Origin: Chloroflexota bacterium
GTDB taxonomy: Bacteria; Chloroflexota; Anaerolineae; Promineifilales; Promineifilaceae
DNA length: 32,745 nt
NCBI GenBank assembly: GCA_020353135.1
Contig: CP070688.1
Span: 3,562,590-3,595,334, forward strand
Direction of reading: 5' to 3'
Positions 56 to 31,425 of this stretch are shown piece after piece. The position numbers and the translations under genes were made by a program. Each line of letters opens with the position of its first letter. The stretch's first letter is position 1. The notes below the pieces were generated by a model, which was not told where the DNA came from, made no database searches, and saw nothing but the letters and a program-made list of their open reading frames with translations.

Positions 56-391
56 TTGTTCAGAATTGAGTTAGATTGCGACGAGGCTTGCACAAATGTG
101 ATTCAGCACGCCTATGGTGGAGAAGACGTTGGCGCGATCCGGGTTGCCTGGGACTTTTCCGAAGGCGCCTTCATCATCACTATCTACGATGAAGGCCAGT
201 ATTTCGATGCCGATGATGTTCCCAAACCCAATATTCCCAGCTCACCAGATGATATAGAAAAACTTAAGATCGGCGGACTTGGCCTTCATTTCATGCGCAG
301 CATGATGGATGACGTGAAGTTTCACAACGACGCGGCCAGTAGTAACAGACTGGTGATGGTCAAGTATCTTTCCGATATCAGCCGCCAATGA
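56..391 (+). CDS. RsbW/SpoIIAB-like anti-sigma-type ATP-binding kinase, 5' end uncertain
   Basis: This is a cytoplasmic GHKL-fold protein of the anti-sigma factor/serine kinase group, which binds ATP and phosphorylates a STAS partner. The N box is DEACTNVIQHAY (residues 9-20 from the TTG at 56). The G1-like motif is YDEGQYFD, and the G2-like motif is GGLGLHFMRSMMDDV. Family members normally have about 20 to 30 residues before the N box. The frame from base 8 to 55 reads KFIVSGAEQVGFGHDEL, which looks like the family's first helix, but a TGA at 5-7 closes the frame just upstream. The true start is therefore unclear: TTG at 56, or a gene reaching off the window through a frameshift. The stop overlaps the next ATG (ATGA, 388-391), so translation is probably coupled to the STAS gene. 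No sigma factor gene is in the window. Confidence 0.82.
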   Translation: MFRIELDCDEACTNVIQHAYGGEDVGAIRVAWDFSEGAFIITIYDEGQYFDADDVPKPNIPSSPDDIEKLKIGGLGLHFMRSMMDDVKFHNDAASSNRLVMVKYLSDISRQ

Positions 392-744
392 GTATCTGGG
401 ATGAACCGACTGGTGAGGGAAGTTGGCTCGTCGTCGTCTCTGGGCGACTTGATCAAAGTCAAAACCAGTTGCTGGAGGAAGAGCTGAAAAGGCTGCTGGA
501 CGAAGGCCATCACCAGCTCATAGTCGACCTCAGCGACGTCACATACGTCAACAGCGGCGGCTTACGATGCTTGGTCACAATCTGGCGACAGGCGCGAGAG
601 CGCGGCGGAAACGTCGTCTTGTGCGGCCTAGGCGAGCGCCTTGCGCATGTCTTCCGGATCGTAGGGTTCGACAAGGTCTTCGTCATCTATCCCAGTCGAG
701 AAGACGCCCAGCGTGGTATAGCCTCTGAAACCGCCCGCGACTGA
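388..744 (+). CDS. STAS-domain anti-sigma factor antagonist
   Basis: This 118-residue single STAS domain resembles SpoIIAA/RsbV. In partner switching it is phosphorylated by the GHKL kinase encoded upstream and dephosphorylated by a SpoIIE-type phosphatase such as the one downstream. The phosphorylation loop reads DLSDVTYVNSGGLR. Ser56 aligns with SpoIIAA Ser58, while the usual Asp-Ser-Ser-Gly is Asn-Ser-Gly-Gly, so the phosphorylatable Ser is kept but the preceding Asp is not. The ATG overlaps the kinase stop codon by four bases. The length is normal for the family. The C-terminal tail after about residue 105 is polar and probably disordered. Context makes antagonist function likely; the final target is unknown. 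Confidence 0.9.
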   Translation: MSIWDEPTGEGSWLVVVSGRLDQSQNQLLEEELKRLLDEGHHQLIVDLSDVTYVNSGGLRCLVTIWRQARERGGNVVLCGLGERLAHVFRIVGFDKVFVIYPSREDAQRGIASETARD

Positions 745-842
745 CGGCGTGCGGGGCCAGGATTCTATCTGCCGCAGCTGTATAGAGCGCCGGACAGTTC
801 TCTGTAGGCTGTCGTTACCCCCTCCACCTTGACAGATCAATC

Positions 843-8468: not shown

Positions 8469-10082
8469 CTAGCCGCTCTCGGTTGTCGGGGACGGCCCTG
8501 CTCCGCTTTCGTTTTCGTTTGCCGCGCCCGTTCCGCTCTCATCTTCAGCCTGTTCTTCCGCACCTTCGGCTTCCTGCGGTTCTCGTATTTCTGAGAAAGG
8601 GTTATTGGGATCGATTAACTCCGCTTCCGCCAGAGGGTTGCCGAAATACGGTTCATCCATGTTGAAGTAATTGTACGCGGCCCGGGCAATTTCCCGCAAT
8701 ATGGGAAAGCTTACGTCCGCCAGCAGCCAGTCTCCAGGTTGGTCCAGATATTCGACAATCACAAAATCGCCGCCGGGCGAGAATACGATGCCCGCGTCGG
8801 CGTGGGTGGCCCGCGCCCATCCATGCTTGTGAGACACCGCCGTACCCTCGGGCACGCCGTAACGAATCAGGTTTCCCTCTTCATTAAGGACCATCAGATC
8901 AATGATCGCCTGGCACTCGTCAGGCGTCAATTCCTCTGGATAGATGGCCAGAAGCGGGCCGCCACCCTGGGCACAATAATAGATCATCGCCAGCAGACTG
9001 CCAATCTCCTCGGCCGTAGATTGCATCGTGGGATCCGGCTGGGTCAACAACTCGCCGGTCGAATTGGCCGGTGTTACGTAAGTCGTCCGACGATAAGCGG
9101 GCGGCGTCGCATCGTAAGGTACCGCCATGAAAGTATTTACCAGGCCTAGCTTCCGCATCGATTCGGTCAGGATATCGGCGCCTTTGTAGGTATTGCTCTC
9201 ACCAGCCACTTCGTGCAGCAATAAGTTGGCCCCGAAATTGCTTGAGCGGGTAGCCGTATCCAGTAGCAGTTGCTGCTGATATGCATTAGGTGGACCGTCC
9301 ATAGCGCGGAATGCCTCGACGAAGATCGCGATCTTCAGGATGCTGAGCCCCGACACGACGACATCTTCGTTGATGCCGATTTCTTCACCGCTTTCGAGGT
9401 CCATAACAAAGACACTGCCAAGCCCTTCAAAACCCTGAAGCTTGGAATTTATCACTTCGGTCAACAACTCCAGACTCATTTCAGGTGGTTGTTCGTCTAC
9501 CAGAGTGAGCCTGGCGTCCCGGTTATGCGGCCGATACAGTGCCGCCTGGGTATCGACTATACTGGCTTCTATGTCGGTGACGAAACCCTCTTGTCCTTCC
9601 TTCACTTCGTCGTCTCGAGTCAAGATCTGGGGCGCCGTGGCCGGCTGGTCTAGGAATCCGGCGACGCTTTGGAGCATCGCTCGCAACCCTGCTTCATCAT
9701 GTGTAGCCATCAACGGCACTTTCACAGGCTGCACCGGTCTTTCAAGAGCAAATGCGACAAAGCTGACCCAGTCCTCTCGGCTATCCGTTTGTTGTTGCGC
9801 TCGCGACATCATAGCCTCGGCGTCGATGGCAAAACCTACGCTGTGAGGATCTAATTCGACGTGTTCATCACGATGGTAGAGATAAACTGGCGCCTGATAA
9901 GCCTCGGTCACCTTATCGGCCGCTTCGGTAAGGGTCAGGGCTGAAACGTCCAGCCCGGCAATGACGCTGCCTTCGGGCAACTCATCACGCGCCTGCCGCC
10001 ACTGAAATCCCCGATAGAGTAGAAAGCCGACCAATACTAGCAGTAAGGTGATTACGAGCCACTTCCGGATAGTCGCTAGCAT
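8469..10082 (-). CDS. Membrane-anchored SxxK serine hydrolase (beta-lactamase-like), copy 2
   Basis: This 537-residue protein has an N-terminal membrane span (about 7-24) and the rest outside the cytoplasm. Residues 38-100 begin with GSVIAGLDVSALTLTEAADKV. This resembles the putative peptidoglycan-binding repeat found with VanW and YkuD proteins (PF12229-like). The catalytic domain has Ser247-Ile-Leu-Lys250 (SxxK), Ser280-Ser-Asn282 (SxN) and Lys419-His-Gly421 in place of KTG, then the family-typical HADAGIVFSPGGDF. The class A deacylating Glu in an ExxLN setting is not evident. The C-terminal 40 residues are an acidic, Gly/Ala/Ser-rich tail that looks disordered. It is a tandem paralogue of the next gene upstream, sharing order and motifs, and is probably active on cell-wall peptides. 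Confidence 0.82.
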   Translation of the reverse strand: MLATIRKWLVITLLLVLVGFLLYRGFQWRQARDELPEGSVIAGLDVSALTLTEAADKVTEAYQAPVYLYHRDEHVELDPHSVGFAIDAEAMMSRAQQQTDSREDWVSFVAFALERPVQPVKVPLMATHDEAGLRAMLQSVAGFLDQPATAPQILTRDDEVKEGQEGFVTDIEASIVDTQAALYRPHNRDARLTLVDEQPPEMSLELLTEVINSKLQGFEGLGSVFVMDLESGEEIGINEDVVVSGLSILKIAIFVEAFRAMDGPPNAYQQQLLLDTATRSSNFGANLLLHEVAGESNTYKGADILTESMRKLGLVNTFMAVPYDATPPAYRRTTYVTPANSTGELLTQPDPTMQSTAEEIGSLLAMIYYCAQGGGPLLAIYPEELTPDECQAIIDLMVLNEEGNLIRYGVPEGTAVSHKHGWARATHADAGIVFSPGGDFVIVEYLDQPGDWLLADVSFPILREIARAAYNYFNMDEPYFGNPLAEAELIDPNNPFSEIREPQEAEGAEEQAEDESGTGAANENESGAGPSPTTESG

Positions 10083-10175: not shown

Positions 10176-11654
10176 CTACTGGCCGCTGGTCTGACCGCCG
10201 AGATATGGATCGTCGAAATTGAAGTAGTTATAGGTGGCCCTGGAGATGTCGGCCAGCAAAGGCGAGCTGATCTCCCACTCCAACCATTCAGGTTTGTACA
10301 TATAGGTTACCAGTACGTAATCGCCGCCAGGGCTAAGAATGATACCGGCATCGGCATGGGTATCGCTGATCCAACCGTGCTTGTGCGCGACAGGCGTTTC
10401 TGGCGGTACACCTTCTTCGATCAGGCTGCCGATCCGATTGAGCTTCATGAATTCAAGCAGCTGCCGGCATTCATCTTGCGCCAACTGGCCATCATAGGCT
10501 GCAAGCAACGCTCCGCCGCCATATTCCGCGCACTGGTATAGCATCACCAACAAGGTGCCGATGTCCTCGGCCGTGGTCTGCATTGCCGGGTCTGGATCGG
10601 TCAGGATATCTTCGTTGCTATTGGCAACGGTCTGGTACGTGGCCCTTCCTGGTCTGGGTTGCTCCTCATAGGGAACTGCGATGAACGTGTTCTGCAAGCC
10701 AAGATCATGCATCGATTCAGTAGTGATATCTGCCCCCAGATATGCATCGTCCTCGCCGGCGATAACATCCAATAGCAGATTGGCGCTGAAGTTTCCTGAT
10801 TGAATGACCAATGTCTCGGAAATGAGCTTGCTCTGCTCGACCGTCAACTCGCCATCGACCGCTCGCAAAGTCTCTATGGCGATTGGCAGCTTCAGAATAC
10901 TCATGCCGGACATCGCCTCGTCGGCGTTGATTGCGATTTCCTCGCCGGTTGTCAAGTCGGCAATGAAGATACTTGCTACGCCGTCAAGATCTTCCAGGTG
11001 ATTGACGATCAATCTGGCCAGCAGGTTGATATCAGGTCTCTGAGGCTCAGTGGGTTCAAGGACCAGCTGGGCTTCACGATCCACAGCGCGGTAGAATGCC
11101 GCCTGCACGTCTGGCGTGCTGGAATCGACGTTCGTGGCCACGCCCGGCTCGCCATATTGGAAGCTCAGCGTTGTGGGAACCGGTTGCGGCGGAAGGGCCG
11201 GCTTGTCGAAAGCGGTTGAGATAGTGCCCAGCACGTCGCGGAGTGCGTCAGGGTTGTGAGTTGCTCTGAGCTCGACATGTTCGACCTCAACCGGTCGCCC
11301 CCATAGGAAACCCCAGAATCCGGCCCAGAAGTCCTGTTGCTGACGCTGATAATCAGCCTGGCTCAGCATCGTTTCGGTGTCCAAAACGAATTCGACATCC
11401 AGCGGGCGAACCTCAATAGCCTCTTCGCCATGATGGACGATGACAGGCGCGTCAACGTATCGGTTGTTAAGTTGCTCAGCAGCCTCTTCAGGCGTCAGGC
11501 CGCCGATGGGAACGCCGCCGGCCGTTAGACCGGCTGGGAAATATCGGCGGAAAGAACCATATTGATAGAGCTTAAACAAAAGAAACAGTACCAGGGCAAC
11601 CATGGCGATAACTAGCAACCACTGCCCCAGTCCAGGCGCCGATCTTCTAGACAT
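10176..11654 (-). CDS. Membrane-anchored SxxK serine hydrolase (beta-lactamase-like), copy 1
   Basis: This 492-residue paralogue of the downstream protein has a membrane span at about 11-28. It has the same PF12229-like segment (GGVPIGGLTPEEAAEQL, 46-62) and the same catalytic set: Ser252-Ile-Leu-Lys255, Ser286-Gly-Asn288 and Lys425-His-Gly427, followed by HADAGIILSPGGDY. The two proteins align along nearly their whole length, including ANLLL, the ESMxxLGLxNTFxAVPY stretch and YNYFNxDxPY. Copy 1 lacks the long acidic tail. Its ATG lies within the end of the NUDIX gene (8-base overlap, 11647-11654), so translation is probably coupled. The 93 bases between the two copies show no convincing promoter. 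Penicillin-binding-like wall hydrolysis is likelier than antibiotic resistance. Confidence 0.82.
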   Translation of the reverse strand: MSRRSAPGLGQWLLVIAMVALVLFLLFKLYQYGSFRRYFPAGLTAGGVPIGGLTPEEAAEQLNNRYVDAPVIVHHGEEAIEVRPLDVEFVLDTETMLSQADYQRQQQDFWAGFWGFLWGRPVEVEHVELRATHNPDALRDVLGTISTAFDKPALPPQPVPTTLSFQYGEPGVATNVDSSTPDVQAAFYRAVDREAQLVLEPTEPQRPDINLLARLIVNHLEDLDGVASIFIADLTTGEEIAINADEAMSGMSILKLPIAIETLRAVDGELTVEQSKLISETLVIQSGNFSANLLLDVIAGEDDAYLGADITTESMHDLGLQNTFIAVPYEEQPRPGRATYQTVANSNEDILTDPDPAMQTTAEDIGTLLVMLYQCAEYGGGALLAAYDGQLAQDECRQLLEFMKLNRIGSLIEEGVPPETPVAHKHGWISDTHADAGIILSPGGDYVLVTYMYKPEWLEWEISSPLLADISRATYNYFNFDDPYLGGQTSGQ

Positions 11655-19407: not shown

Positions 19408-22185
19408 CTACCCCTTTAGTTCCAGCCAGTTCGTCCCTTTGCTGGTTTCGACCTTTAAAGGCACGTCCAAAGGAAAGGCGCCCGACATCGTTTCAACTAC
19501 GAGCGGCTCAACCGAGTTGAGTTCTTCATCCGGAACCTCCAGAACGAGTTCGTCGTGTACTTGTAGTATCATTCGGGCGCGATAGCCACCTAGCAATCTG
19601 GCACTTAGACGAATCATGGCGATCTTAATAATATCGGCCGCGGTGCCCTGAATTGGATGGTTAACGGCCTCTCTATCTGCCCGCGCTTCCACCTGGCGAT
19701 TCACTCGCGCCCTGGTCATGAAAATCGGGAAGTAACGCCGTCTACCCAATAAGGTCTCGACATAACCCTGGCTGCGGGCTTGCTGGCGAGTCTCCTCTAG
19801 GTAGCGACTGATACCTGGGAAGCGTTCGAAGTAAGCCTTGATGTAGTTTTCGGCCTCGGCCAGCGTGAGTTCCGAGTCGCGGGCCAGACGGTACGGTCCC
19901 ATGCCGTAAATCAAGCCAAAATTGACCGCCTTGGCAAATCGTCTTTGGTTGTAATTCACTTGCTCGACGTCGATGTCATAGACCGCGGCCGCTGTCGTAT
20001 TGTGAACATCTTGATCCAGCTTGAACGCCCCCAGCAAGGCCTGGTCTTGGCTGATGTGGGCCAGTACTCGCAGCTCCACCTGTGAGTAATCGGCCGCCAG
20101 AAACCGCCAGCCTGTCTGTGAGACAAAACCGCGCCGGATTTGTTGGCCGACCTTGGTCCGAATCGGGATGTTTTGCAGGTTTGGCGAGCTACTGGCCAGC
20201 CGGCCGGTGACAGCGCCAGTCTGTTTGTAGCTCGTGTGAATTCGCCCTGTGTCCGAATTGACCATCTGCGGCAAGGCATCCACATACGTGCTTTTCAGCT
20301 TGCCTAGCTCACGGAACTCGACGATAGCGGCCACGATACCGGTCTCGTCGACGGCCTGAAGGCCTGACAACACATCGGCCGCGGTCGAGTAGTGGCCGCT
20401 TTTCGTCTTGCGGAGCCCCTCGTGCGGCAGCTTGAGGCGCATGAACAGCACGTCGCTGAGTTGCTGTGTAGAGTTGATATTGAATGGTTCGCCGGCAATC
20501 TCATAAATCCTGGCCTCTAGCTCTTTTAACCGCTGCTCAAGCTGGCCAGACATTTCCTTGAAGAAATCCACGTCGACGCCTACGCCGGTCTTCTCCATCG
20601 CTGCCAGCACCGTGATCAATGGCATCTCAAGCTCGTCGAGCAGTTTCGATAGACCTTTTGCCTCGATCTCAGGCTGTAATTCGTGGGCCAGGCGCAGCGT
20701 TAAGTCCGCGTCTGCGGCGCCATAGGGTGCAGCCGATTCGATTGGCACTTCCGCGAATGTGCGCTGATTGCGCCCTTTGCCGATCAGCTCGCTGATTGGC
20801 GTCATCTCGACGCCCAGGCGGTGGAAGGCGAGATCCTTTAGACCCAGGTGCTTGCTGCCAGGATCCGTGAGCCATTCGGCGATCATCGTATCAAAACCCA
20901 GAGGTGCAACAGCCAGCCCGTATCGCTCTAGAATAGCATAATCATACTTGGCGTTGTGGGCGATCTTAGGAACGTCAGGATTCGTCAGGGCCGGCCGCAG
21001 CGCATCAAGGACGTGTTCAAGCCCAAGCTGTCCATCGGCCAGGACCGCCTCTCCGGCGAATAAGGTCAGCTGGCCATCGCTATTCTGCGATTCGCCGCTC
21101 AGGTGTCCGACCGGTATGTAATAACCCGTTCCCGGTTCAACTGCCAGGCAAATACCAACCAACTCCGCCTGACGCTCGTCCAGGCCAGTCGTCTCGACGT
21201 CAAAACTGACTTCCGTCGCCTCGGCCATCTTCTGCGCCAAGTCGTGAAGAGCTTCCGCTGAGCGGACAATCACCGTCTGGGTAGGCGCCTGGTGGCCTAT
21301 GTTCGCCGCATCTTCCATCGTATCGACAAGGCGGCCGCTCAAGCTTCGAAACTCCAGTGCCCGGAAAAGCTCCAGCACCTGGTCGGGATCGAACTCTTTC
21401 GTCAAACAAGCCTCCAGGTCCAGTTCGATCGGCGCGTCGGTGACGATCATAGCCAGCTTGTAGCTTAAGTAGGCATCCTCTTTGCCGGCAGCCAGCTTCT
21501 TACCCATGGCACCCTTGACCTGGTCAACATTTTCGTAAACATCATCCAAGGTGCCATATTCTGCCAGCAAGCGCACGGCCGTTTTATCACCCACGCCTGT
21601 CACGCCTGGGATATTATCGCTCTTGTCCCCCACCAACGCTTTGTAGTCCACGACCTGGTCCGGCCGCACCTGCATCTTGTCGACCACAGCCTTCTCATCG
21701 TAAAGGGACGGCTCGCGCTGGCCTCGGCCGGCCGGCAATTCTACAATCGTATTCCCATCAACCAACTGTAATAAGTCGCGGTCGCCGGTGATGATATGAA
21801 CAGGGACTTCATGATCTTTGGCCTGCCGGGCGATCGTGCCCAAGACATCGTCAGCCTCATAGCCCTCCAATTCCAAAATCGGAATACTAAGGGCCGCAAC
21901 GACCTGCCTTATTCGCTCGATCTGTTGTCTTAGCTCGTCAGGCATTCTGGCGCGAGTGCCCTTGTACGCCGCAAACAGTTCATCCCTAAAGGTAGCGCCG
22001 ACGTCGAAGCTTACCGCAAGGTACTGCGGCGGATCGTCAGACAGCATTAAGTCCAACAGGGTTCGGCTGAAACCGTAGGTTGCATTAGTCGGTTCGCCGT
22101 CCTTGGTAGTAAATGCCTCTAAAGGTAGGGCGTAGAAAGCCCTGTAGGCCAGCGCGTGGCCATCGATAAGTACAAGTTTCTTCAT
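19408..22185 (-). CDS. polA: DNA polymerase I with 5'-3' and active 3'-5' exonuclease domains
   Basis: This 925-residue family A polymerase carries out Okazaki fragment maturation and repair synthesis. The N-terminal 5'-3' nuclease (1-290) has LIDGH, EGYEADD, ITGDRDLLQL and GDKSDNIPGVTGVGDKTA. The proofreading domain (about 320-500) keeps Asp329 and Glu331 (FDVETTG), Asp415 (NAKYD) and Asp492 (YGAAD), so 3'-5' exonuclease should be active. The polymerase motifs are A ADYSQVELR (Asp699), B RRFAKAVNFGLIYG (748-761) and C QVHDELVLEVP (Asp878). The ATG at 22185 is chosen because the protein then begins MKKLVLIDGHALAYRAFYA as the family does. The open frame up to 22290 would overlap the upstream gene and has no family similarity. 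It follows the roadblock/HUH gene by 20 bases. Confidence 0.97.
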   Translation of the reverse strand: MKKLVLIDGHALAYRAFYALPLEAFTTKDGEPTNATYGFSRTLLDLMLSDDPPQYLAVSFDVGATFRDELFAAYKGTRARMPDELRQQIERIRQVVAALSIPILELEGYEADDVLGTIARQAKDHEVPVHIITGDRDLLQLVDGNTIVELPAGRGQREPSLYDEKAVVDKMQVRPDQVVDYKALVGDKSDNIPGVTGVGDKTAVRLLAEYGTLDDVYENVDQVKGAMGKKLAAGKEDAYLSYKLAMIVTDAPIELDLEACLTKEFDPDQVLELFRALEFRSLSGRLVDTMEDAANIGHQAPTQTVIVRSAEALHDLAQKMAEATEVSFDVETTGLDERQAELVGICLAVEPGTGYYIPVGHLSGESQNSDGQLTLFAGEAVLADGQLGLEHVLDALRPALTNPDVPKIAHNAKYDYAILERYGLAVAPLGFDTMIAEWLTDPGSKHLGLKDLAFHRLGVEMTPISELIGKGRNQRTFAEVPIESAAPYGAADADLTLRLAHELQPEIEAKGLSKLLDELEMPLITVLAAMEKTGVGVDVDFFKEMSGQLEQRLKELEARIYEIAGEPFNINSTQQLSDVLFMRLKLPHEGLRKTKSGHYSTAADVLSGLQAVDETGIVAAIVEFRELGKLKSTYVDALPQMVNSDTGRIHTSYKQTGAVTGRLASSSPNLQNIPIRTKVGQQIRRGFVSQTGWRFLAADYSQVELRVLAHISQDQALLGAFKLDQDVHNTTAAAVYDIDVEQVNYNQRRFAKAVNFGLIYGMGPYRLARDSELTLAEAENYIKAYFERFPGISRYLEETRQQARSQGYVETLLGRRRYFPIFMTRARVNRQVEARADREAVNHPIQGTAADIIKIAMIRLSARLLGGYRARMILQVHDELVLEVPDEELNSVEPLVVETMSGAFPLDVPLKVETSKGTNWLELKG

Positions 22186-22205
22186 GGTTGTCTCGAATGT
22201 GCTTG

Positions 22206-22973
22206 CTATAGGGCGTCGCTTAAGTAGGCCAGAAGCTCCTCTCCGGGCAACGGTTCGGTTGACGGGCTTGCCAGAAACCCTTTCCGCCAAAGGTCAATGG
22301 TATCGCCGGTTAGACGCTGGATATCTTCTTGAATGCAGCCCTTGAACGTGTGAGCGGCCCAAGAACTTGTTTTGTGCGGTGGGCAGTGCATGACCAGATG
22401 CACGTGATCGGATGCGACGCCGACAAACGTGAGACGGCAGCCACTCTCCTGAGCCAGATTGCTCAGGCTCATCTTTACCGCCTGGCGCAAAGCCCTTGAC
22501 ATTGGCTCAACCGGCCGCCACGCAATCGCGTAGGCGTCAACTACTCTGGCCGCTTGGCCATTCTTTAGCGCCCTGCCTGCCTCGCGTAGCAGTCGAGCAC
22601 TCAACAGATCGGCATTGCGGCTGAGGACGCTGATGGACGTTTCAATCCGGGCGGCAAGCGTCAAAAGAGAGGCGCTCACCGGTTTCGTGAACAACAAGAG
22701 AGGCTCATCATTTCCATTCAGCCGAACATACTGAATCTGTGCCGTGTGGGTCTCCACATCCCATGTCGACCAAATCTTCTTTGCAAGATCATCGGCCATG
22801 ATTGGATCCACTATTCGGCCGCAACTCAGGATTCCGCCGTCAGTGAGCAGAAGGATTTGCTCCAGGCGAGAAGCCAGGTCCAATTCACGGCATATTCGCC
22901 AAAAATCGTCACCTGAAATAGAAGTAACCGCGCCCGCCGCTATGGGCGCATTTTGGACTGGCTTTGCGGGCAT
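22206..22973 (-). CDS. Fusion of roadblock/LC7-like domain with Y1 HUH (IS200/RAYT-type) nuclease
   Basis: This single uninterrupted 255-residue frame has two parts. Residues about 22-130 show the alternating pattern of a roadblock/LC7 (MglB-like) domain: ILLLTDGGILSCGRI, a helix MADDLAKKIWSTW, then IQYVRLNGNDEPLLLFTKPVSASLLTLAA. Residues about 147-255 match the Y1 transposase fold: AYAIAWRP as first strand, the HUH motif His190-Val-His192 in SDHVHLVMHCPP, HTFKGCIQEDI, LWRKGFLASP and a final helix with Tyr250 in LAYLSDAL as candidate nucleophile. HUH Y1 enzymes cut and rejoin single-stranded DNA at hairpins. No IS ends or accessory tnpB are seen. GGAG lies seven bases before the ATG. PolA is 20 bases downstream, suggesting a resident, co-expressed gene. 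Nuclease assignment is strong, the roadblock part moderate. Confidence 0.8.
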   Translation of the reverse strand: MPAKPVQNAPIAAGAVTSISGDDFWRICRELDLASRLEQILLLTDGGILSCGRIVDPIMADDLAKKIWSTWDVETHTAQIQYVRLNGNDEPLLLFTKPVSASLLTLAARIETSISVLSRNADLLSARLLREAGRALKNGQAARVVDAYAIAWRPVEPMSRALRQAVKMSLSNLAQESGCRLTFVGVASDHVHLVMHCPPHKTSSWAAHTFKGCIQEDIQRLTGDTIDLWRKGFLASPSTEPLPGEELLAYLSDAL

Positions 22974-23030
22974 CTATTCAACTCCGCGGGTTAGTGCATG
23001 GCTCGGGCGCCGCACGGATTCTACTGCCGC

Positions 23031-23044
23031 GACCGCAAGCGGTC
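23031..23044. repeat. Perfect palindrome upstream of the HUH fusion gene
   Basis: GACCGC-AA-GCGGTC is a perfect 6+6 inverted repeat with a two-base centre, 57 bases upstream of the HUH gene start and in the gap shared with the divergent response regulator gene. It could be a regulator operator or a foldback target of the HUH protein. The rest of the 242-base gap holds no gene I can support. Confidence 0.45.
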
Positions 23045-23202
23045 AAATGGCGACTCTGGACGAAGGACGGCCGTTGAATTGCGTGGCCGAGCGTAGAGCC
23101 GCAGCTGAAGAACTACTGGAAACGGGTTCAACTGCTGACAATTTGTCTTGGTCACATGGTACGATTCCTTGCCGGCCGCGTGCCTGTACCGTCAACCTGT
23201 TC

Positions 23203-23208
23203 TAGAAT
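23203..23208 (+). promoter_or_regulatory. Candidate -10 of the second response regulator gene
   Basis: TAGAAT ends seven bases before the ATG at 23216, and no ribosome-binding site lies between them. No good -35 is seen at the usual distance. The placement matches the leaderless pattern at 18687 and 18768. Confidence 0.4.
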
Positions 23209-23215
23209 CGGCGCT

Positions 23216-23911
23216 ATGTCCGGTGAATCGATCCTTCTGGTTGAAGATAATGACGCCGTCGCTCTAGGTTTACAGATAGGCCTGGAACGCGAGCGCTACC
23301 AGGTGACTCGGGCTGCCTCGGTAGCCGAAGCCCGAAGCCTGGCTCGTGAAGTGGACTTCCACCTGTTCGTCCTAGACATCCGATTGCCTGACGGTAGCGG
23401 CTTTGATCTATGCCGAGACTTGCGAGCTTCAGGACTGCGGCAGCCCATCTTGATCCTGACCGCCCGGGACGAGACATCCGACAAGGTTATCGGTCTTGAA
23501 CTTGGCGCCGATGATTACATGACCAAGCCCTTCGAGCTTCATGAACTTATAGCCCGCATTCGCGCCCTGCTTCGCCGCAGCTACGGATCACTGGCCGATG
23601 GCGAACCTTCCCTTGTCGAAGCCGGGGATATCAGCCTGGATTTCGTCAAACAGCGAGTGTTCTGCCGTGGCTTGGAACTTCACGTAACGGCTACCGAATT
23701 CAGGCTCTTGGCGTTCCTCATCCAGCACCCTGGCCGGGCATTTGATCGGGCAACGTTGATCAGGCGTGTCTGGAGCGACGAACAGCTGGCAGGGGATAAC
23801 CGCACTGTCGACGTGCACATTCGTAATCTGCGGACTAAGATCGAGATCGATCCGGCCTGGCCGCGACTCATCGTCACGGTACGCGGCGCCGGCTACATGT
23901 TTGCCGGCTAA
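23216..23911 (+). CDS. OmpR/PhoB-family response regulator
   Basis: This 231-residue regulator has a receiver domain (about 4-120) with acidic Glu10-Asp11, phospho-acceptor Asp54 (FVLDIRLPDGSG), Thr82 (ILTARDE) and Lys104 (MTKPFELHEL). The C-terminal winged helix has VTATEFRLLAFLIQHPGRAFDRATLIRRVW, NRTVDVHIRNLRTKIE and IVTVRGAGYMFAG. The ATG at 23216 is chosen because the protein then starts with the family N-terminus (SGESILLVEDNDAVA); an in-frame ATG at 23156 adds 20 residues of no family similarity. It is the first gene of a regulator, double-PDZ, kinase group and is divergent from the HUH/polA unit. Confidence 0.94.
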   Translation: MSGESILLVEDNDAVALGLQIGLERERYQVTRAASVAEARSLAREVDFHLFVLDIRLPDGSGFDLCRDLRASGLRQPILILTARDETSDKVIGLELGADDYMTKPFELHELIARIRALLRRSYGSLADGEPSLVEAGDISLDFVKQRVFCRGLELHVTATEFRLLAFLIQHPGRAFDRATLIRRVWSDEQLAGDNRTVDVHIRNLRTKIEIDPAWPRLIVTVRGAGYMFAG

Positions 23912-23965
23912 ACCCTTCAGCATAGCCCCAAATCCTTGAAGATGGACGCTCGAAAGGCGCCATTG

Positions 23966-23995
23966 TTAACACTTCTTAACCGGTCCCTAACCGAT
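23966..23995 (+). promoter_or_regulatory. Helically phased direct repeats, candidate response regulator binding site
   Basis: TTAAC at 23966-23970, TTAAC at 23976-23980 and CTAAC at 23987-23991 start 10 and 11 bases apart, about one helical turn. OmpR/PhoB-type regulators bind such tandem repeats. The last repeat lies within CCCTAACCGAT (23985-23995), which recurs at 15256-15266. The array lies about 10 bases upstream of where a -35 for the PDZ gene promoter would fall. Confidence 0.5.
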
Positions 23996-24020
23996 TCCTC
24001 AAGATTCGCGAGCGCCGGCG

Positions 24021-24029
24021 TGCTAAGAT
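24021..24029 (+). promoter_or_regulatory. Candidate extended -10 for the PDZ protein gene
   Basis: TGCTAAGAT fits the extended -10 pattern TGn plus a TATAAT-like hexamer (four of six). There is no good -35, as expected for an activator-dependent promoter, and phased repeats lie just upstream. The leader would be about 130 bases. Confidence 0.35.
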
Positions 24030-24164
24030 CTCAGGTGTATCGCGCCTGCCGAAGCCGTTTCCGGTGTTCCGAATCTTGTGGTCTACCGGACCATATGGGC
24101 TCTGCATTTCCAAGGATGCGGCGTTTATCCAGGTAGCGGTTTTAGCTATCGGAGGTAATTGAGC

Positions 24165-25097
24165 ATGAAGAAGAGAAGTTACAGGCGAGTCTTACTGGTT
24201 ATAATCGGCTTGTTAGCGGTGGTTGGCTTGATAGTGATAAGCGCCGCGGCTTCGGTCCTGGCCTATCGGCAATTCGTGGACCGCGACAATGATCGGATAG
24301 CATTGTCGGTCGACGGGCTGCAAGTTGATGATAGCCAGGATTCATCCGAAGGCGGCGTCGTTATCCTACGGGTTGAGCAGGGCAGCCCGGCTGAGCAGGC
24401 TGGCCTGACCCGTGGCGCAGTGATTGTCAGCGTTAACGGCCGGGTGGTCAATAGTCCCGATGAACTTAAGGAGGCCATCGGCCAGTACGAAGTCGGCGAC
24501 ACGGTGACACTAACGATCCGGGACGGCGCAGAGAAGCAAGATGTAGCCGTTACATTGGCGGAAACGGGACCCTATTTAGGTGTTAACGTCGTCCCAAGCG
24601 GAGGCGTTTATCGCTTCCACGCTGAGGGACACGAGGATTCTCCCCATGACTTTGCGTTTCCTCGAATTCCTGGGCCTCGACACTTTCCGAACGAGCCGGA
24701 AGGCATGCCATTCGAATTCCCTTTCGGAGAATTCGATTTTGACGAATTCGACTTCGAGCACGCTCCGTTCTTTGAGAACTTCGCTTCAAGCGCCTTCGTG
24801 ATGTCGGTTGTGGAGAGCAGCCCGGCCGCGGAGGCCGGCTTGTTGCCTGGCGACGCCATCGTCGAAATGGACGGCCAGGCAATTCAGAGTCGCCAGGATC
24901 TGATAGACGCGGTGGCCGAATCTTCACCAGGGGACAAAGCTTCTCTACAAGTTGAGCGCGGCGAAGAGACGCTGGCGGTCGAGGTGACGTTAGGTAATCA
25001 TCCAGAAGACGATGGTCGCGCCTATCTGGGCTTGTTCCTCGCGCCTGGTTTGATGCATAGACAGCGGGAACTCTTTCAGGATCAAAGCAACAGCTAA
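24165..25097 (+). CDS. Membrane-anchored double-PDZ protein lacking a protease domain
   Basis: This 310-residue protein has one membrane span (about 9-33) and two PDZ domains outside the cytoplasm. PDZ1 (about 62-143) contains GGVVILRVEQGSPAEQAGLTRGAVIVSVNG; PDZ2 (about 208-293) contains FVMSVVESSPAAEAGLLPGDAIVEMDG. They resemble HtrA/DegP PDZ domains, but the trypsin-like domain is absent. Between them lies a Phe/Asp/Glu-rich segment (183-206, with EFDFDEFDFE) that may be flexible or bind metal or peptide. It sits between a response regulator and a histidine kinase, so it could bind misfolded peptide ends and modulate the kinase; this is an inference. GGAGG (24151-24155) lies nine bases before ATG 24165, which is preferred over TTG 24159. 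Confidence 0.88.
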   Translation: MKKRSYRRVLLVIIGLLAVVGLIVISAAASVLAYRQFVDRDNDRIALSVDGLQVDDSQDSSEGGVVILRVEQGSPAEQAGLTRGAVIVSVNGRVVNSPDELKEAIGQYEVGDTVTLTIRDGAEKQDVAVTLAETGPYLGVNVVPSGGVYRFHAEGHEDSPHDFAFPRIPGPRHFPNEPEGMPFEFPFGEFDFDEFDFEHAPFFENFASSAFVMSVVESSPAAEAGLLPGDAIVEMDGQAIQSRQDLIDAVAESSPGDKASLQVERGEETLAVEVTLGNHPEDDGRAYLGLFLAPGLMHRQRELFQDQSNS

Positions 25098-25153
25098 CGG
25101 GCTGGCAAAAAACTTATGAATCTACAGCAACAGATGGCCTAGCCTTAATTGGT

Positions 25154-25191
25154 CGAGCCGGGCGGTGGGAAGAAGATCGCCGACGGGCTCG
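25154..25191 (+). other. Stem-loop before the second histidine kinase gene
   Basis: CGAGCC (25154-25159) pairs with GGCTCG (25186-25191), and GGCG (25161-25164) with CGCC (25178-25181) inside it, giving an imperfect GC-rich hairpin. It ends 22 bases before the kinase ATG. There is no T-run, so it is not a clear terminator; attenuation or control of kinase translation is possible. Confidence 0.4.
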
Positions 25192-25213
25192 CTTCCCTAG
25201 CTGCAGGATATTT

Positions 25214-26782
25214 ATGCGTCGTACGGTAGGCTGGCATTTCTTCATTTATAGCCTGGCCATTATCCTGGTGGCCATTGTGGCCGTCGGTGCCGTTACCCTG
25301 CTCTTGGTCAACGCCAACTTCAGCCGGCAGGAAGAACAATACCTCTTCGAACGCGGCGATCATCTCGTAGAACCATTGCAATCTGTCTTTCAATGGGGCG
25401 CCGATCCGGCCGAACTGCAAGACATCGCTAGTTTCGGTCTCTTTACCGGTCACGTACGCATCAGGATCACCGACCCACAGGGTCATGTTCTGGCCGATTC
25501 TGGTAGCTTCAGCGAACTCCTTGACATTCATGCCGAAGGCCCAGTCGAATCTTCGGCGACGGCATTCCAGCTCCTTTTCGACCAGTCTGGACGTTACCAG
25601 GCCTTCAGAATGCCGGCCTTCCGGCCCGAGAGCTTTGGCCCGCTCATGATGCCGGGCCGTCCGCGTTCCGAATCCGGATCACAGATCATTACTGCCGAGC
25701 CGGCGCCCCAACCCCCCATCGTCGATATCTCAGACGCGGCCGTGAGCCTGCCCCTTCGTGTCGACAGCGAGGTCGTCGGTTATGCGGAGTTGTCTGAAGG
25801 ACCGGCCTTTGGCCAGGCGATTCGCGAGACGCTGCAACAGGCGCTGCTCTTCGGTGGATTGGTTGCTTTGCTTGTGGCCGCCGTCGCGGCCGTCATGGCC
25901 GCCCGCCAGGTGACCCGACCGCTCCAGTCCCTGGGCCAGACGGCCGACGAAATGGCTCGGGGCAACCTGGATGCTCGGGCCGATGGCAGCAAGTTGGCCG
26001 AAATTGACCGTTTGGCGTCCCAATTCAATAGTATGGCCGATCAATTGACCACCACCATTGCTTCTTTGGAGGCGGAACGGGCCTCATTGCGACGTTTCAT
26101 AGCCGACGCTAGCCACGAGTTGCGCACGCCTCTGACCGCATTAAAGACGTTTAACGCCCTGATGGACGTGGATGGTGGCCCGGAAAGCGGTCGCACTGCC
26201 GAATTAGTCCGAGAAAGCGGCCGGCAACTCAACCAGCTGGATCGGCTGACGTCTGATCTGCTAGATTTAAGCCGGCTCGAGTCCCGGATTAACGGAGCGG
26301 ATCTTCACGTCGCCGACATCCGGGTGCCCGTTAGCAAGGCGATCGCGGCGCTCCGGCCCTTGAGCGTGGCAAAGATGCAGATGCTGCAAGAAGATTTGCC
26401 AACGTACCCGGTGCTCGTTGCCCACGAACCGGCTCTTTTGCAGCGCGCGGTTGAGAACCTGGTCTCCAATGCGGTTAAGTACTCGCCAGTCGAGAGCCTC
26501 GTCCTGGTTAGCCTGCTGTCCAACGGCAGATCGGCCGGGATTCACGTGCGCGATGAGGGTCCGGGCATCCTACAGGTCGAGCAGGAGCACATCTTTGGTC
26601 GTTTCTACCGCGGTCGGCAATCAGGCGACGATGGCAGCGGACTTGGTCTGGCAATTGCCCGCGAAATCGCCCTCATACATGATGGTGAGATACTCTTCAC
26701 ATCGGAGCAAGGAAAGGGCAGTCACTTCGTTCTACGGCTCCCCTTGACTGGCCACGAAACAGACCCGGATCTTCTTCGCTAG
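25214..26782 (+). CDS. Sensor histidine kinase with HAMP and HisKA-HATPase
   Basis: This 522-residue membrane kinase has span 1 (about 9-32), an extracytoplasmic region of about 175 residues, span 2 (about 209-230) and HAMP (about 231-283). The H box FIADASHELRTPL carries phosphorylated His301. The HATPase has its N box (Asn415 to Asn419), G1 RDEGPGI (446-452) and G2 DGSGLGLAIAREIA (473-486), all intact. G1 has Asp-Glu-Gly in place of Asp-Thr-Gly, a common variant. The likely partner is the regulator at 23216-23911, with the PDZ protein between them. A weak AGGA lies before the ATG. The extracytoplasmic part has ITDPQGHVLADSG, as in sensor domains, and a Pro-rich stretch near 133-170. Confidence 0.94.
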   Translation: MRRTVGWHFFIYSLAIILVAIVAVGAVTLLLVNANFSRQEEQYLFERGDHLVEPLQSVFQWGADPAELQDIASFGLFTGHVRIRITDPQGHVLADSGSFSELLDIHAEGPVESSATAFQLLFDQSGRYQAFRMPAFRPESFGPLMMPGRPRSESGSQIITAEPAPQPPIVDISDAAVSLPLRVDSEVVGYAELSEGPAFGQAIRETLQQALLFGGLVALLVAAVAAVMAARQVTRPLQSLGQTADEMARGNLDARADGSKLAEIDRLASQFNSMADQLTTTIASLEAERASLRRFIADASHELRTPLTALKTFNALMDVDGGPESGRTAELVRESGRQLNQLDRLTSDLLDLSRLESRINGADLHVADIRVPVSKAIAALRPLSVAKMQMLQEDLPTYPVLVAHEPALLQRAVENLVSNAVKYSPVESLVLVSLLSNGRSAGIHVRDEGPGILQVEQEHIFGRFYRGRQSGDDGSGLGLAIAREIALIHDGEILFTSEQGKGSHFVLRLPLTGHETDPDLLR

Positions 26783-26797
26783 TATGGAGCGCCCCGA

Positions 26798-28186
26798 TTA
26801 AAGCACACTCAGCGGAATGCTTTCAGTTGCCGCTTCAGAGGTCAATGAGAGGCTCGCGTCACTATCGACCAGTGAGCCAGACATGCTCCATGGGCCAGTA
26901 TGCGTGATTTTCACCTCGACAAGATGCCCGCTCAGATCGCGATCGTCGTCAAAGAAAACCAGCTTCCCTTGAGGCGTGCGGCCTTGCCACCGGCCCTTAC
27001 GCCGGTCTTCAACCAACACTTCCTGCACCGTGCCCAACCAGCGCTTCATCTTGCGCTGCGAAATCGCCTTCTGTAGATTCTCAAGCTCGTGGAACCGGCG
27101 CCTTTTCTCTTCGTCGGGTACGTCATCCTCCATTTGTCTGGCGCTCAGAGTGCCCGGTCGCGGACTATAGCGGGCAAGGTGAACCTTGTCGAATTCAAGC
27201 TCGGCCAGCAAATCATAAGTGCGCTGGAATTGATCGACCGTCTCCCCGGGAAAACCGACGATGATATCGTTGTGAATGGCAGCATCGGGCAGGATATCGC
27301 GTATGCGCGCGATCAGATCTCGATACTGGCCGGCCGTGTAGCCTCGTTTCATATTCGCCAACACCTGGTTGTCCCCTGCTTGCATTGGCACCTCGATCTG
27401 GGGCATTACTTTGGGCAGTTCAGCCACGGCACGTATGATTCTATCCGTCATGTAGTTAGGGTGACTGGTCAGGAACCGGATCCGCTCCAAGCCGTCAACG
27501 CGCTGCACGGCGATCAACAGATCAGCCAGATCGGGCCCATCAGGGATGTCCCGACCGTAGCGGTCAACGATCTGGCCCAGTAAGACGACTTCTTTGACGC
27601 CCTGTTCTGCTAACTGGCGCACCTCGGCCACAATCTCGCCCACCGGCCTGGTACGCTCAATACCGCGCCGCTGGGGTATGATGCAAAAGCTACAGGCGTG
27701 AGAACAACCATATACCACAGCCACTGGCGCCGATACCAACTCACCCGCCCTGCGCAACGACAAGGCCAACTCGCCGTCCTGGATGGCGAATCGGCGACGC
27801 GCATGCGCCAGGTCCAGCGCCTTGTCTTCATCCTGCAACAGGTGAGAAACAAGCGGTCCGCCATCGCTGGCTGGCGGCAACCACAAATCGACGTGCGGAA
27901 AACGCGCCTGCAAGGCATCATTGCCCTTTACGCCAACAACACAGCCCATCATGGCCAAGGTCAGATTCGGCCGGGCTTCCTTAAGCGGCCGAAGGCTCAA
28001 CAATCGACCATAGGCCCTATCTTCAGCTTGCTGGCGAACGGTACAGGTTTGCAGGACGATCACGTCGGCGTTGTCGGCCGTCGCCGTCGCTTCATAGCCC
28101 AACGCCTCAAGACGATTGGCGACCTGCCGCGCATCGGCGTAATTCATCTGGCAGCCGCTAATCCAAAAATGGTACTTCTTAGTCAT
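26798..28186 (-). CDS. miaB: tRNA-2-methylthio-N6-dimethylallyladenosine synthase
   Basis: This 462-residue methylthiotransferase adds the 2-methylthio group to i6A37 of tRNA using two iron-sulfur clusters. The N-terminal MTTase domain has the MiaB-type GCQMN (Cys12), QTCTVR (Cys48) and GCVVG (Cys82). The radical SAM cluster site is Cys161-x3-Cys165-x2-Cys168 (YGCSHACSFCIIP). PMQAGDNQVLANMKRGYT and HNDIIVGFPGET follow, then a TRAM-like C-terminus. The usual LLGQNVNSYG is LLGQIVDRYG, a small deviation. GCQMN rather than RimO or MtaB signatures supports MiaB. ATG 28186 is preferred over TTG 28192; neither has a strong ribosome-binding site. It has its own promoter (28225-28253) and converges with the kinase gene, with 15 bases between. 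Confidence 0.93.
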   Translation of the reverse strand: MTKKYHFWISGCQMNYADARQVANRLEALGYEATATADNADVIVLQTCTVRQQAEDRAYGRLLSLRPLKEARPNLTLAMMGCVVGVKGNDALQARFPHVDLWLPPASDGGPLVSHLLQDEDKALDLAHARRRFAIQDGELALSLRRAGELVSAPVAVVYGCSHACSFCIIPQRRGIERTRPVGEIVAEVRQLAEQGVKEVVLLGQIVDRYGRDIPDGPDLADLLIAVQRVDGLERIRFLTSHPNYMTDRIIRAVAELPKVMPQIEVPMQAGDNQVLANMKRGYTAGQYRDLIARIRDILPDAAIHNDIIVGFPGETVDQFQRTYDLLAELEFDKVHLARYSPRPGTLSARQMEDDVPDEEKRRRFHELENLQKAISQRKMKRWLGTVQEVLVEDRRKGRWQGRTPQGKLVFFDDDRDLSGHLVEVKITHTGPWSMSGSLVDSDASLSLTSEAATESIPLSVL

Positions 28187-28224
28187 AATCAATCTTGGTG
28201 CAACGGGTCTATTCTAAGGACCGC

Positions 28225-28303: not shown

Positions 28304-29098
28304 CTACTCTATTCGACCGATCAGCAACGCCACTTCCAGTCGAAACCTTATCCTCCCCTTGTCGAACTCCGGCCGCAGGAAATCAGTAACCTCGGCCGGC
28401 GCCTGACGCAACATCGCTTCCAGGCGGATTTCATCGGCCGGTTGCACCCGCATGCGCGCCGCCCAATCGTGAAAATCCAGCATCTTGTCGGCAGTTTCTT
28501 GCTTCACAAGCCGAAAGCCAGCTTCATAGAAGTTGCGCTGCCAACCGTCCAAGGTTAAGCACCGGATATGGCTTGGATCGCGGAGGGCCTCGAAGGCATT
28601 GATGTAACGAGCTGCCCCCTGGATCCGCTTGGCCTGTTTGCCGTGACGGTAGCCGCCAGGTACGACGTTGTCGACGATGGCCAGGAACCCACCTGGCCGC
28701 AACGCTCGGGCCGACTCTGCCATGAAATCGGGCACGGCTGGAAAGTGATGCGCGGCTACGCGGCAGGTTATCAGGTCGAAGCTACTATCGTCAAAGGGCA
28801 GATCCTCCGCATCGGCCGCAGCCGTTACGACATTGTTCAAACCCTTGTCGCGCGCCAACGAGGCCGTTAGTTCGAGCATCCTGACGGTGATGTCGCTGGC
28901 CACCACCTGGCGCACGTGAGGCGCGAACTTGACGGCCGTATGGCCGGCGCCAGTCGCCACATCTAGAACCTGCCACTCAGGTTGGGGACGCGTCAATTCC
29001 AGCAGGCGTTCCAGGCTCAGTCCTTTGGCGTGGATTTCGCTTGTCGCATAGGCCTCGGCGCTGGACGTGAATTGCTCACGAACACGTCTTTTGCTCAT
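28304..29098 (-). CDS. Class I SAM-dependent methyltransferase (UbiE/BioC-like fold)
   Basis: This 264-residue methyltransferase has motif I VLDVATGAGHTAVKFA (44-59), Asp69 in motif II (VASDIT), ADAEDLPFDDSSFDLITCR (95-113) and a post-motif region with ALRPGGFLAIVDNVVPG. This order is that of Methyltransf_11 enzymes such as UbiE, BioC and YcgJ. The substrate is unknown. The ATG at 29098 is chosen because the protein then begins in the family manner (VREQFTSSAEAYATS). A GTG at 29131 would overlap the upstream gene by 16 bases. It lies 17 bases after that gene on the same strand, so it may be its last co-transcribed partner. Confidence 0.88.
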   Translation of the reverse strand: MSKRRVREQFTSSAEAYATSEIHAKGLSLERLLELTRPQPEWQVLDVATGAGHTAVKFAPHVRQVVASDITVRMLELTASLARDKGLNNVVTAAADAEDLPFDDSSFDLITCRVAAHHFPAVPDFMAESARALRPGGFLAIVDNVVPGGYRHGKQAKRIQGAARYINAFEALRDPSHIRCLTLDGWQRNFYEAGFRLVKQETADKMLDFHDWAARMRVQPADEIRLEAMLRQAPAEVTDFLRPEFDKGRIRFRLEVALLIGRIE

Positions 29099-29115
29099 TT
29101 CTTGCTTCACCTTGC

Positions 29116-31425
29116 TTACCGATCTGTCCACACGGCGCTATTGCAGCCAGGAAGATCGTGGGCAACCGTCCATTCTTGCCCGGTAGCTGACGATACCAGG
29201 TGCAGCGCTCGACCTCCTACGGAAAGAAGCCAAGCGCCGTCGGCCGACCAATCTATCGGAATGAATGGGTCCAGGCGGCGCATCTCACCGGTGGCCGTGT
29301 CAACAAGCTCGACGCTGGCACCGGTGCCGTCGGCCGCCACGCCCGCCGAGACTGCGTAGCGTCCACCCGGGCTCACCATGGGCGGTTGAAACTGGCGAAA
29401 GCGGTCTAGGTCAGCTGCTATGACGACCTCTCCTCCCCAGGGATCAAGGATGACTAAGAAGTCACGCCCGTCTGCCGGATCCATCGATGCGGTGCTAATT
29501 ATCCATGCCGGCTCCCCCTGAGCAACCGGTCGCGCCCACCAGAGGCCAAGACTCTCTGGCCGGATCGATTCGGGGATACTCTGACGCACAGATTCAGCAT
29601 TGAACAGCGGCGCCGGGTCATACTGTGTCCTGGCGTCGGCAATCATGACTTGCCGGCCGAAGCGCCGACCCAACCAGTCTGCCGCTGCCCCAGGTTCTAG
29701 CGCAACGTAGCTGAAACTCATCTCGTCGTGCCAGATCGCCGACTGTCCAGGGCCAATCAGGACCTGTACCTCACCCGCATCATCGCCCAGGTAGAGATCA
29801 GTCCCTCCATTGCTTTGGGGCACGTATACCAAGGTCTGCCGGCCGTCCGACGACCAGATCGGCAATCCCGCTAACGGCTCTAGCGAACAAGGTTCGCTCT
29901 CGCACATGTTCAAATCGAGCCGTTGGTCGGAAACGGGCCATCCGTTGTTCCCGATCTCCGGGACGTAGAACACGAGATAGCGGTCAATCGGCTGGTTAGC
30001 GTCCTGGAAACTCGGTGGCAAATACAGATAGGGCCTGGTTTCTTCCGCCATAAGACGGAAAGACCCATCCTGCCACACGTAGGTGTACCTGACATTCTCG
30101 GCGTCCAACATGCCCTCGACCTGGATCAGCGCTACACTGTAGTCTGGCAGCCGGCTGAGATAGGTTCCGTGCTGAGGAGTCAGCGGGCCGACTTCACGCC
30201 ATTGGTCTGGGGGGATTTCCTCCTGCCAGCGGCCGCTATCCGCCCGAAAGCGTAGCAGCCGCGTCGAACTTCGTGCCGCGCATAACATTAGCACATCTTG
30301 CTGCGGTGTGGGTGCCCCGGTCGGAAAATTGTCTAGAGATGACCTCGGCAAAGGCTGAAATGGCAACGGCGGCGGCCGCAGGCCGAAGTCAGCCAGCACA
30401 GCGACCGTCGCATCAGAATCGGCCGAATCATCTTGCAGGCCGTAACCGGCCACAATCGCCGCGCCGATCCAGCCTGCGTAGCCGCGCTGCAAGGCGCGGA
30501 AACCGGCCTCGTCTACCGGGATACCAATCAAGCTTGGCGTCGGCAGGGAAAGGCGATCATCGGTCGCGGCAGAACTGGCCCTGAGTGGGTACGGCAATTC
30601 GCCCAAGCGCCGCAGACTGGTCTGGTCGGTCTCAAGCCTGAGGACCAGGTTAAAACTCGGCGGGCAGGCAACAGCATTTTCGGCGCACAGGTCAACCAGG
30701 AAGCGGTCAAGCTCGCCGGCAAGCCTGATAGCGGTCTCTTCATCTCGCCTGGGGAAGGTCAGGGTCAAGTATTCACGCTCATCGTGTTCCCAGTTGCCCC
30801 AATAGGTCCGATCGTCGGCCGGTGGGGACAGCAACCACTGGTTGTCGATCTGCTGGTAGAGAAAGCTTCGTTCAAGAACCACCGTCTCCGTCGTTCCATC
30901 ACTGTTCCGCACAATGTACGGCCGGCGGTCACGCACCTCCGCTTTCGTCAGGTCCGGTGACACGTGATCCATGCTAATCTCGGCCACATGCCGCCCGGCA
31001 TCAGCGATTGGATCGATAGCCAGCGGTCGCCGGCCGAAGAATAGCCGTTTGCTCAGTAGTTCTGTCTGAAGGGCATGCCATGAAGATGGCCGACTAGCCG
31101 TCAGTGACTCGACGACATCCGTATCGCCCCGGAGGGCGGCGTTAGCTAACAGCTCATGGGTTTCAAGGACATCGGAATGAGCGCTCTCCGTTGCAACCCT
31201 TACCCTGCTGTTCAGGGAGATGTAGATCCATGTCGCAGCCCCGATTAGCGCGCAAGCGAACAGCGTCACTGACAGCACTTTGAGGCGGCGGCTAATCTTC
31301 CTGGCCGGCCGTGCCAGCACTGGCTCGTCCTCAACCCAGACGTCCTCAACATCGGTTTGCCATTCAAATTCGTCGGGCACGGTCCTAAGGTGTAGTTGAG
31401 CTAAGGCGCAGTTCTCCCAATTCAC
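29116..31425 (-). CDS. Large membrane-anchored protein with C-terminal propeller-like region, function unknown
   Basis: The family is not recognised. The 769-residue protein has a short cytoplasmic N-terminus (about 1-48), one membrane span (about 49-70) and a large extracytoplasmic part. Residues about 75-200 look like a helical, then beta-rich domain of the kind in which Ser/Thr scaffold proteins end a polar stretch (YQQIDNQWLLSPP). The middle (about 205-345) has EYLTLTFPRRDEETAIRLAGELDRFL and GIPVDEAGFRALQRGYAGWIGAAIV, a pattern seen around degenerate peptidase-like domains, but no HExxH. From about 375 on, repeated short strands (SDGRQTLVYVP, SPGGRYAVSA, SADGAWLLSV) suggest a TolB/WD-type beta-propeller. 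It starts at GTG, overlapping the upstream stop by four bases (GTGA, 31422-31425), so the two are coupled. Confidence 0.75.
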   Translation of the reverse strand: MNWENCALAQLHLRTVPDEFEWQTDVEDVWVEDEPVLARPARKISRRLKVLSVTLFACALIGAATWIYISLNSRVRVATESAHSDVLETHELLANAALRGDTDVVESLTASRPSSWHALQTELLSKRLFFGRRPLAIDPIADAGRHVAEISMDHVSPDLTKAEVRDRRPYIVRNSDGTTETVVLERSFLYQQIDNQWLLSPPADDRTYWGNWEHDEREYLTLTFPRRDEETAIRLAGELDRFLVDLCAENAVACPPSFNLVLRLETDQTSLRRLGELPYPLRASSAATDDRLSLPTPSLIGIPVDEAGFRALQRGYAGWIGAAIVAGYGLQDDSADSDATVAVLADFGLRPPPLPFQPLPRSSLDNFPTGAPTPQQDVLMLCAARSSTRLLRFRADSGRWQEEIPPDQWREVGPLTPQHGTYLSRLPDYSVALIQVEGMLDAENVRYTYVWQDGSFRLMAEETRPYLYLPPSFQDANQPIDRYLVFYVPEIGNNGWPVSDQRLDLNMCESEPCSLEPLAGLPIWSSDGRQTLVYVPQSNGGTDLYLGDDAGEVQVLIGPGQSAIWHDEMSFSYVALEPGAAADWLGRRFGRQVMIADARTQYDPAPLFNAESVRQSIPESIRPESLGLWWARPVAQGEPAWIISTASMDPADGRDFLVILDPWGGEVVIAADLDRFRQFQPPMVSPGGRYAVSAGVAADGTGASVELVDTATGEMRRLDPFIPIDWSADGAWLLSVGGRALHLVSSATGQEWTVAHDLPGCNSAVWTDR

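Follow-up and report, generated by a model that had tools for sequence, protein, structure and literature searches.

Roadblock domains dimerise, and most of what is known of domesticated Y1 transposases concerns the RAYTs, which are linked to REP hairpins. The TnpA-Y1 family, which includes the IS200/IS605 TnpA and the TnpA-REP (RAYT) proteins, has members that are untied to insertion sequences (PMC6006769). IS200 transposases are dimers that act on secondary structures of single-stranded DNA (ssDNA), and the TnpA protein of IS608 shows affinity for DNA that resembles a fork, with DnaN as a presumed interaction partner (PMC6006769). These enzymes use as their third metal ligand a Q/N located about four residues after the tyrosine, in a pattern that is specific to each class (Y---Q, Y---NP, or Y----Q), and variants with core extensions, insertions, and C-terminal domains have been described, roadblock and receiver domains being unmentioned in the main text of that article (PMC6006769). 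As for the roadblock domain, it is found in MglB, a regulator of the GTPase MglA, and Response_reg–Robl_LC7 fusions have also been noted, some of them unmatched by the Pfam model (PMC4316618).

The gene analysed here lies in a 32,745-nucleotide stretch of DNA (hereafter, the window) from a Chloroflexota bacterium. Its product shares the Y1 fold, the HUH motif, and the C-terminal Tyr with the TnpA-Y1 proteins; in contrast, it has an N-terminal roadblock domain (joined by a receiver domain in longer relatives), lies beside polA, and shows neither a Q/N third ligand nor IS ends. The family to which it belongs also resembles the Response_reg–Robl_LC7 fusions in its N-terminal receiver followed by a roadblock domain, although here a Y1 domain follows in most members, often beside polA, and the clade of the window protein has no receiver. 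No account of the fusion, or of a linkage to polA, was found in the open-licence full texts searched. Domesticated Y1 proteins and receiver–roadblock fusions are known separately; what the literature searched did not show is their combination, the linkage to polA, and the series of decayed active sites presented below. The biological significance lies in a Y1 domain that has been built into a signalling-type protein (receiver plus roadblock) and retained next to polA in far-apart branches of a single phylum, and in a locus at which the decay of an active site can be followed as a natural series. If these proteins bind Pol I substrates, lagging-strand or gap processing would gain a new partner that is subject to regulation. 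In addition, proteins labelled at source as "response regulator" or "hypothetical protein" become, among the matches listed, one testable family.

The fusion gene and its surroundings

The roadblock and Y1 halves are encoded by a single, uninterrupted frame that starts with ATG (Table 1), and the join is as first described from the letters alone: the Y1 half is recognised by a Y1_Tnp match and the roadblock half by its predicted fold and a profile. A GGAG lies upstream of the ATG, and an in-frame TAG lies immediately 5' of it, so the window protein has no further in-frame N-terminal domain. The polA ATG is found at position 22185, 20 nt past the stop codon of the fusion gene, which agrees with the spacing originally given. 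In the window, the gene is directly flanked by polA and by a response-regulator gene, neither neighbour being a GTPase gene. The interval that separates the fusion gene from the MiaB-type gene (23156-26782) contains a response regulator, a PDZ protein, and an ORF that is histidine-kinase-like by eye.

Table 1. Features of the fusion gene and its neighbours, in window positions
Feature	Coordinates	Strand	Remarks
Fusion ORF, 255 aa, roadblock + IS200-type Y1 (HUH/Tyr) domain	22206..22973	-	Chloroflexota bacterium
Roadblock/LC7-fold domain, residues 17-135, order a-b-b-a-b-b-b-a	22569..22925	-	Predicted fold
Y1 transposase-fold domain, residues 143-255	22209..22547	-	
HUH motif, H190-V191-H192	22398..22406	-	Invariant in 18/18 clade members
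Tyr250, Y1 nucleophile position	22224..22226	-	Invariant in 18/18; chain end five residues on, no Q/N at +4
polA (DNA polymerase I)	19408..22185	-	Same strand, 20 nt downstream of fusion ORF
Sigma-70-like promoter match upstream of fusion ORF	23018..23046	-	Weak: 1 found vs 0.5 expected by chance
Presumed MiaB/RimO-type methylthiotransferase gene (named from its Pfam domains)	26798..28192	-	Also found 5' of the family gene at seven other polA loci
Methyltransferase gene	28304..29131	-	Relatives upstream in L162-L165 too

With regard to mobility, a search for inverted repeats in 21800-23700 returned none that closely flank the gene, the only arms being at least 360 nt apart, in line with the claim that no IS features surround it. 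No other copy of the fusion was found within the window, and the relatives inspected have one fusion per genome (sequence inspection covered 33 of the 38 matching genomes, all but G047 and G053-G056). Plasmids gave no match, viral contigs no confirmed match, and phages a sole match to the IS200 of an archaeal virus. The gene thus appears to be domesticated rather than mobile, given the lack of IS features, the absence of another copy in the window, and the single fusion in each of the related genomes inspected.

The Y1 half: an HUH motif without the usual third ligand

The Y1 half matches Y1_Tnp (PF01797) at residues 161-237 with 28.5 bits against a cut-off of 23; it also matches the NCBIfam IS200 model with an E value of 1.7e-7, yet at 31.5 bits, under the strict cut-off of 55. 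A search of 5.8 billion proteins (E 1e-3 or better) gave 18 close-clade proteins including that of the window, the 17 relatives being 39-71% identical to it. DHVH and Y250 are invariant in all 18 despite this divergence, and for this reason the match is not attributed to chance. On the other hand, a Q/N four residues past the Tyr is found in none of the 18, which have other residues or the chain end at that position; the chains stop 3-5 residues beyond the Tyr. Ordinary IS200 proteins of the phylum have Q at Tyr+4 in six of six cases (YIEAQ and the like). The original prediction of a "complete-looking" nuclease therefore holds for HVH and Tyr and fails for the third metal ligand of the Y1 active site, and with this ligand absent from every member a complete nuclease is not established in the clade. 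As read from the sequences, the HUH motif and the Tyr are retained within a metal site that is non-canonical.

Conservation within the clade was compared over 15 untruncated rows (P0011 and P0016 lack their first residues, and the 144-aa fragment P0018 is outside the 17-row count used below). Mean pairwise identity is 63% in the Y1 domain vs 42% in the roadblock domain, and invariant columns amount to 36/113 and 10/119, respectively. The probability that HVH and Tyr all land among the invariant Y1 columns by chance is about 0.03, and selection seems to act on these residues.

The roadblock half

The predicted fold of residues 17-135 is that of a roadblock/LC7 domain, and when the family profile A4 was run against PDB sequences, LAMTOR2 (p14) and MglB accounted for all of the 20 best matches (E 1.3e-5 to 0.041). 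Both lines bear out the roadblock identity proposed for the N-terminal half, which Pfam misses. In fact, Pfam and NCBIfam gave no match on this half of the window protein, Robl_LC7 (PF03259) had no match in the window protein or in seven relatives, and across 20 genomes none of the Robl_LC7 matches falls at the family gene. Of the two models by which the halves were to be recognised, only Y1_Tnp thus scores over its cut-off. A sub-threshold Robl_LC7 match (13.8 bits vs a cut-off of 23) is located in the right place in L013. The comparison of the roadblock alignment with a local MglB-like set by hhalign gave no match (probability 0.2%).

A wider family of receiver–roadblock–Y1 proteins

The fusion is present in relatives, both in the 17 close-clade proteins and in a larger Chloroflexota family around the window gene. 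The latter mostly has a receiver–roadblock–Y1 architecture, as seen in relatives by Pfam, AF2, and profile comparison. A total of 21 fusions were found in 301 genomes of the phylum, and the Y1 domain has been retained in lineages that are far apart. The receiver domain is absent from the window's clade. For the window's order, the receiver-like N-terminus matches a receiver set by hhalign with 99.3% probability (E 1.6e-20), three proteins of the set being recognised by Pfam over the cut-off, and it has a weak PDB match (best E 6e-4); a Pfam receiver search of L089, L097, L108, L029, and L041 gave no match. In a second model, made for a relative, the VIA list contains receiver and Y1 chains and no roadblock chain, and the roadblock part of this model is assigned by homology (profiles A3 and A4) and secondary structure.

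Protein searches scored about 8000 candidates sharing most words, and one of these searches is represented by the best 120 of 164. The A1 pattern scan of genome contigs matched 51 stretches, none of which encodes a relative; since conservation of the two patterns used is limited to the clade of the window protein, this result indicates that the scan met no clade member in these contigs, and the degenerate relatives came from other searches. Among additional observations, stand-alone frames of 182-194 aa near the family's Y1 were found in L143, L144, and L145, with a degenerate HUH (EYLQ, DYFQ) and no polA within 3 kb. Another example is that of L166 and L167 (genome G051), in which family-like roadblock modules are located away from polA, after a stretch that is receiver-like by eye and has no Pfam receiver match; the module of L167 runs on into ABC permease domains (BPD_transp_1, OppC_N).

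Decay of the active site

The HUH motif is spanned by 196 rows, 17 from the window's clade and 179 others, some genes being counted twice among the 179 (e.g., L016/L088/L113). DHVH and Tyr are present in 17/17 clade rows, and both His in 0/179 of the others; the HUH is likewise found in 0/21 further proteins, one of which is L097 again. The remnants differ between groups. In the window's order they are mostly LVH or LIH, with Phe replacing Tyr, and in L097 and L108 the remnant is HVQ. An Anaerolineales-type group has YLQ and often retains the Tyr, and a 640-residue group has FIY with Phe. DNA cutting is therefore not supported as a function of the family, given these counts and the missing third metal ligand of the clade itself; of the domesticated ssDNA-cutting enzyme originally proposed, the domestication is supported and the cutting, as a family function, is not.

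In a quick 101-row tree from which the HUH and Tyr columns were left out, the window's clade forms one group (SH-aLRT 100), sister to L097/L098 (95) and nested in receiver-bearing relatives. An alternative topology in which the 30 receiver-type rows of the order all group together passes the AU test (p-AU 0.317), so the place of the clade beside L097/L098 is insecure and the data do not fix how many times the HUH was independently lost. The simplest account of the sequences would be an active ancestor followed by several later losses of the HUH; one loss followed by the regain of three residues appears less likely.

Linkage to polA

The association with polA extends beyond the genome of the window. 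Within a 1.5 kb flank, polA is present at 17 of the 21 fusions from the 301 genomes. From the side of polA, 80 loci were collected, and the 66 with at least 1.5 kb upstream were used for the count: in 20 of them a family gene lies less than 600 nt upstream on the same strand (Y1 being absent in two of the 20), with a gap of 50-250 nt in 17 cases. The computed gap is slightly negative in L097, L022, L134, and L148, as in coupled genes. Such short or slightly negative gaps suggest that the family gene is co-expressed with Pol I. The linkage is not obligatory, since 46 of the 66 polA loci have no family gene within 600 nt. These include the closest by polA (L001-L006 and L055), and in six of these seven genomes the gene is located away from polA. 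In the window's order, polA is in the flank at 6 of 30 inspected loci, and within the clade the linkage is seen in the window only. The position of the window's gene looks ancestral because the genes upstream of it recur in other loci, the MiaB-type gene in seven and the methyltransferase gene in four.

The domains kept at polA vary. L013, L022, L134, and L148 lack the Y1 at polA and have the roadblock, along with a receiver recognised by Pfam, and L147, L168, and L169 (genomes G042, G039, and G043) have short roadblock-only genes immediately upstream of polA, in which Pfam recognises neither a receiver nor a Y1. In fact, the roadblock is the sole part always retained among the polA-side genes examined. 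A fusion with polA itself in L098 was rejected, as the single frame into polA arises only from two N in the record. As for other neighbours, the MiaB-type gene is nearer to the family gene in L161-L165 than in the window, and a TPR-repeat protein of about 770-800 aa is encoded downstream of polA in 11 family-gene loci (e.g., L016 13472-15790). The MiaB-type, methyltransferase, and TPR genes point to no mechanism.

Possible roles of the fusion protein

The reading that we prefer, at roughly even odds (about 0.5), is that the window protein represents a receiver-less, HUH-retaining branch of a domesticated, polA-linked roadblock–Y1 family, whose members would be dimeric binders of structured ssDNA co-expressed with Pol I, cutting being optional or lost. 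The roadblock domain would form the protein dimer and dock a regulatory partner, that is, a small GTPase and, in the longer relatives, also a receiver or pseudo-receiver domain. By analogy with IS200 transposases, the paired Y1 folds may bind hairpin or fork-type ssDNA, and co-expression with Pol I would give them a role in lagging-strand gap or flap processing. Most lineages would act by binding alone, and proteins of the window's clade may in addition nick DNA or attach to it covalently, with another residue perhaps standing in for the third metal ligand. We favour regulated binding of ssDNA structures during Pol I-linked DNA processing because of the properties of the MglB and IS200 families and the short gaps to polA.

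Since the roadblock is always kept among the polA-side genes examined, with or without a receiver, a serious rival is that it is the working part, as a regulator of the Pol I operon or a GTPase-signalling adaptor, and that the Y1 is a structural transposase remnant whose HUH has been kept in the clade for folding or metal binding. The lack of both His in all rows outside the clade fits this possible role, as does the joining of a related roadblock to permease domains in L167, which implies that the module serves other outputs too. However, the Y1 is the better conserved half within the clade and persists in far-apart lineages, and the invariance of HVH and Tyr is hardly expected by chance, so that we find this explanation doubtful rather than improbable. 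The idea that the protein is an active domesticated enzyme, switched by a roadblock-binding GTPase and nicking ssDNA so that Pol I fills the nicks, is unlikely. It draws on the invariant HVH and Tyr250, the PF01797 score above cut-off, the adjacent polA, the MglB-like roadblock proteins of 19 of 20 related genomes, and the Arf-family matches, likewise in 19 of 20. Nevertheless, the Arf-family search is unspecific and also matches the E. coli and B. subtilis controls, so a dedicated GTPase is not shown, and GTPase control of the window protein is possible; moreover, the Q at Tyr+4 of ordinary IS200 proteins is missing in the clade, and the rest of the family has lost the HUH yet kept the gene and often its polA linkage. 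Finally, the Y1 domain with HUH and Tyr could belong to a mobile element, or to a RAYT/REP system still moving itself or REP sequences; copy number in the relatives inspected, flanking repeats, plasmids, phages, and viral contigs led to the rejection of this very improbable reading, and the same site beside polA in distant lineages also speaks against it.

A bolder form of the preferred structured-ssDNA binder can be put forward as a speculation that is somewhat unlikely in its full detail. The family would be an accessory factor of Pol I in Chloroflexota, built from a transposase-derived reader of structured ssDNA under the control of a receiver/roadblock switch. The enzyme would have been domesticated together with its active site, which would then have decayed repeatedly to binding only; in the window's clade the receiver would have been lost, and an HUH nuclease with an altered metal site would still act at hairpins of the lagging strand.

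Elsewhere in the window

The window also contains, at 56-3737, a partner-switching set in one gene run, with HATPase_c_2, STAS, and triple-GAF SpoIIE phosphatase proteins, of which we take the first to be RsbW-like and the second RsbV-like. A Beta-lactamase2-type serine hydrolase domain is found in three separate proteins of this 32-kb stretch (3747-5180, 8469-10082, and 10176-11654).
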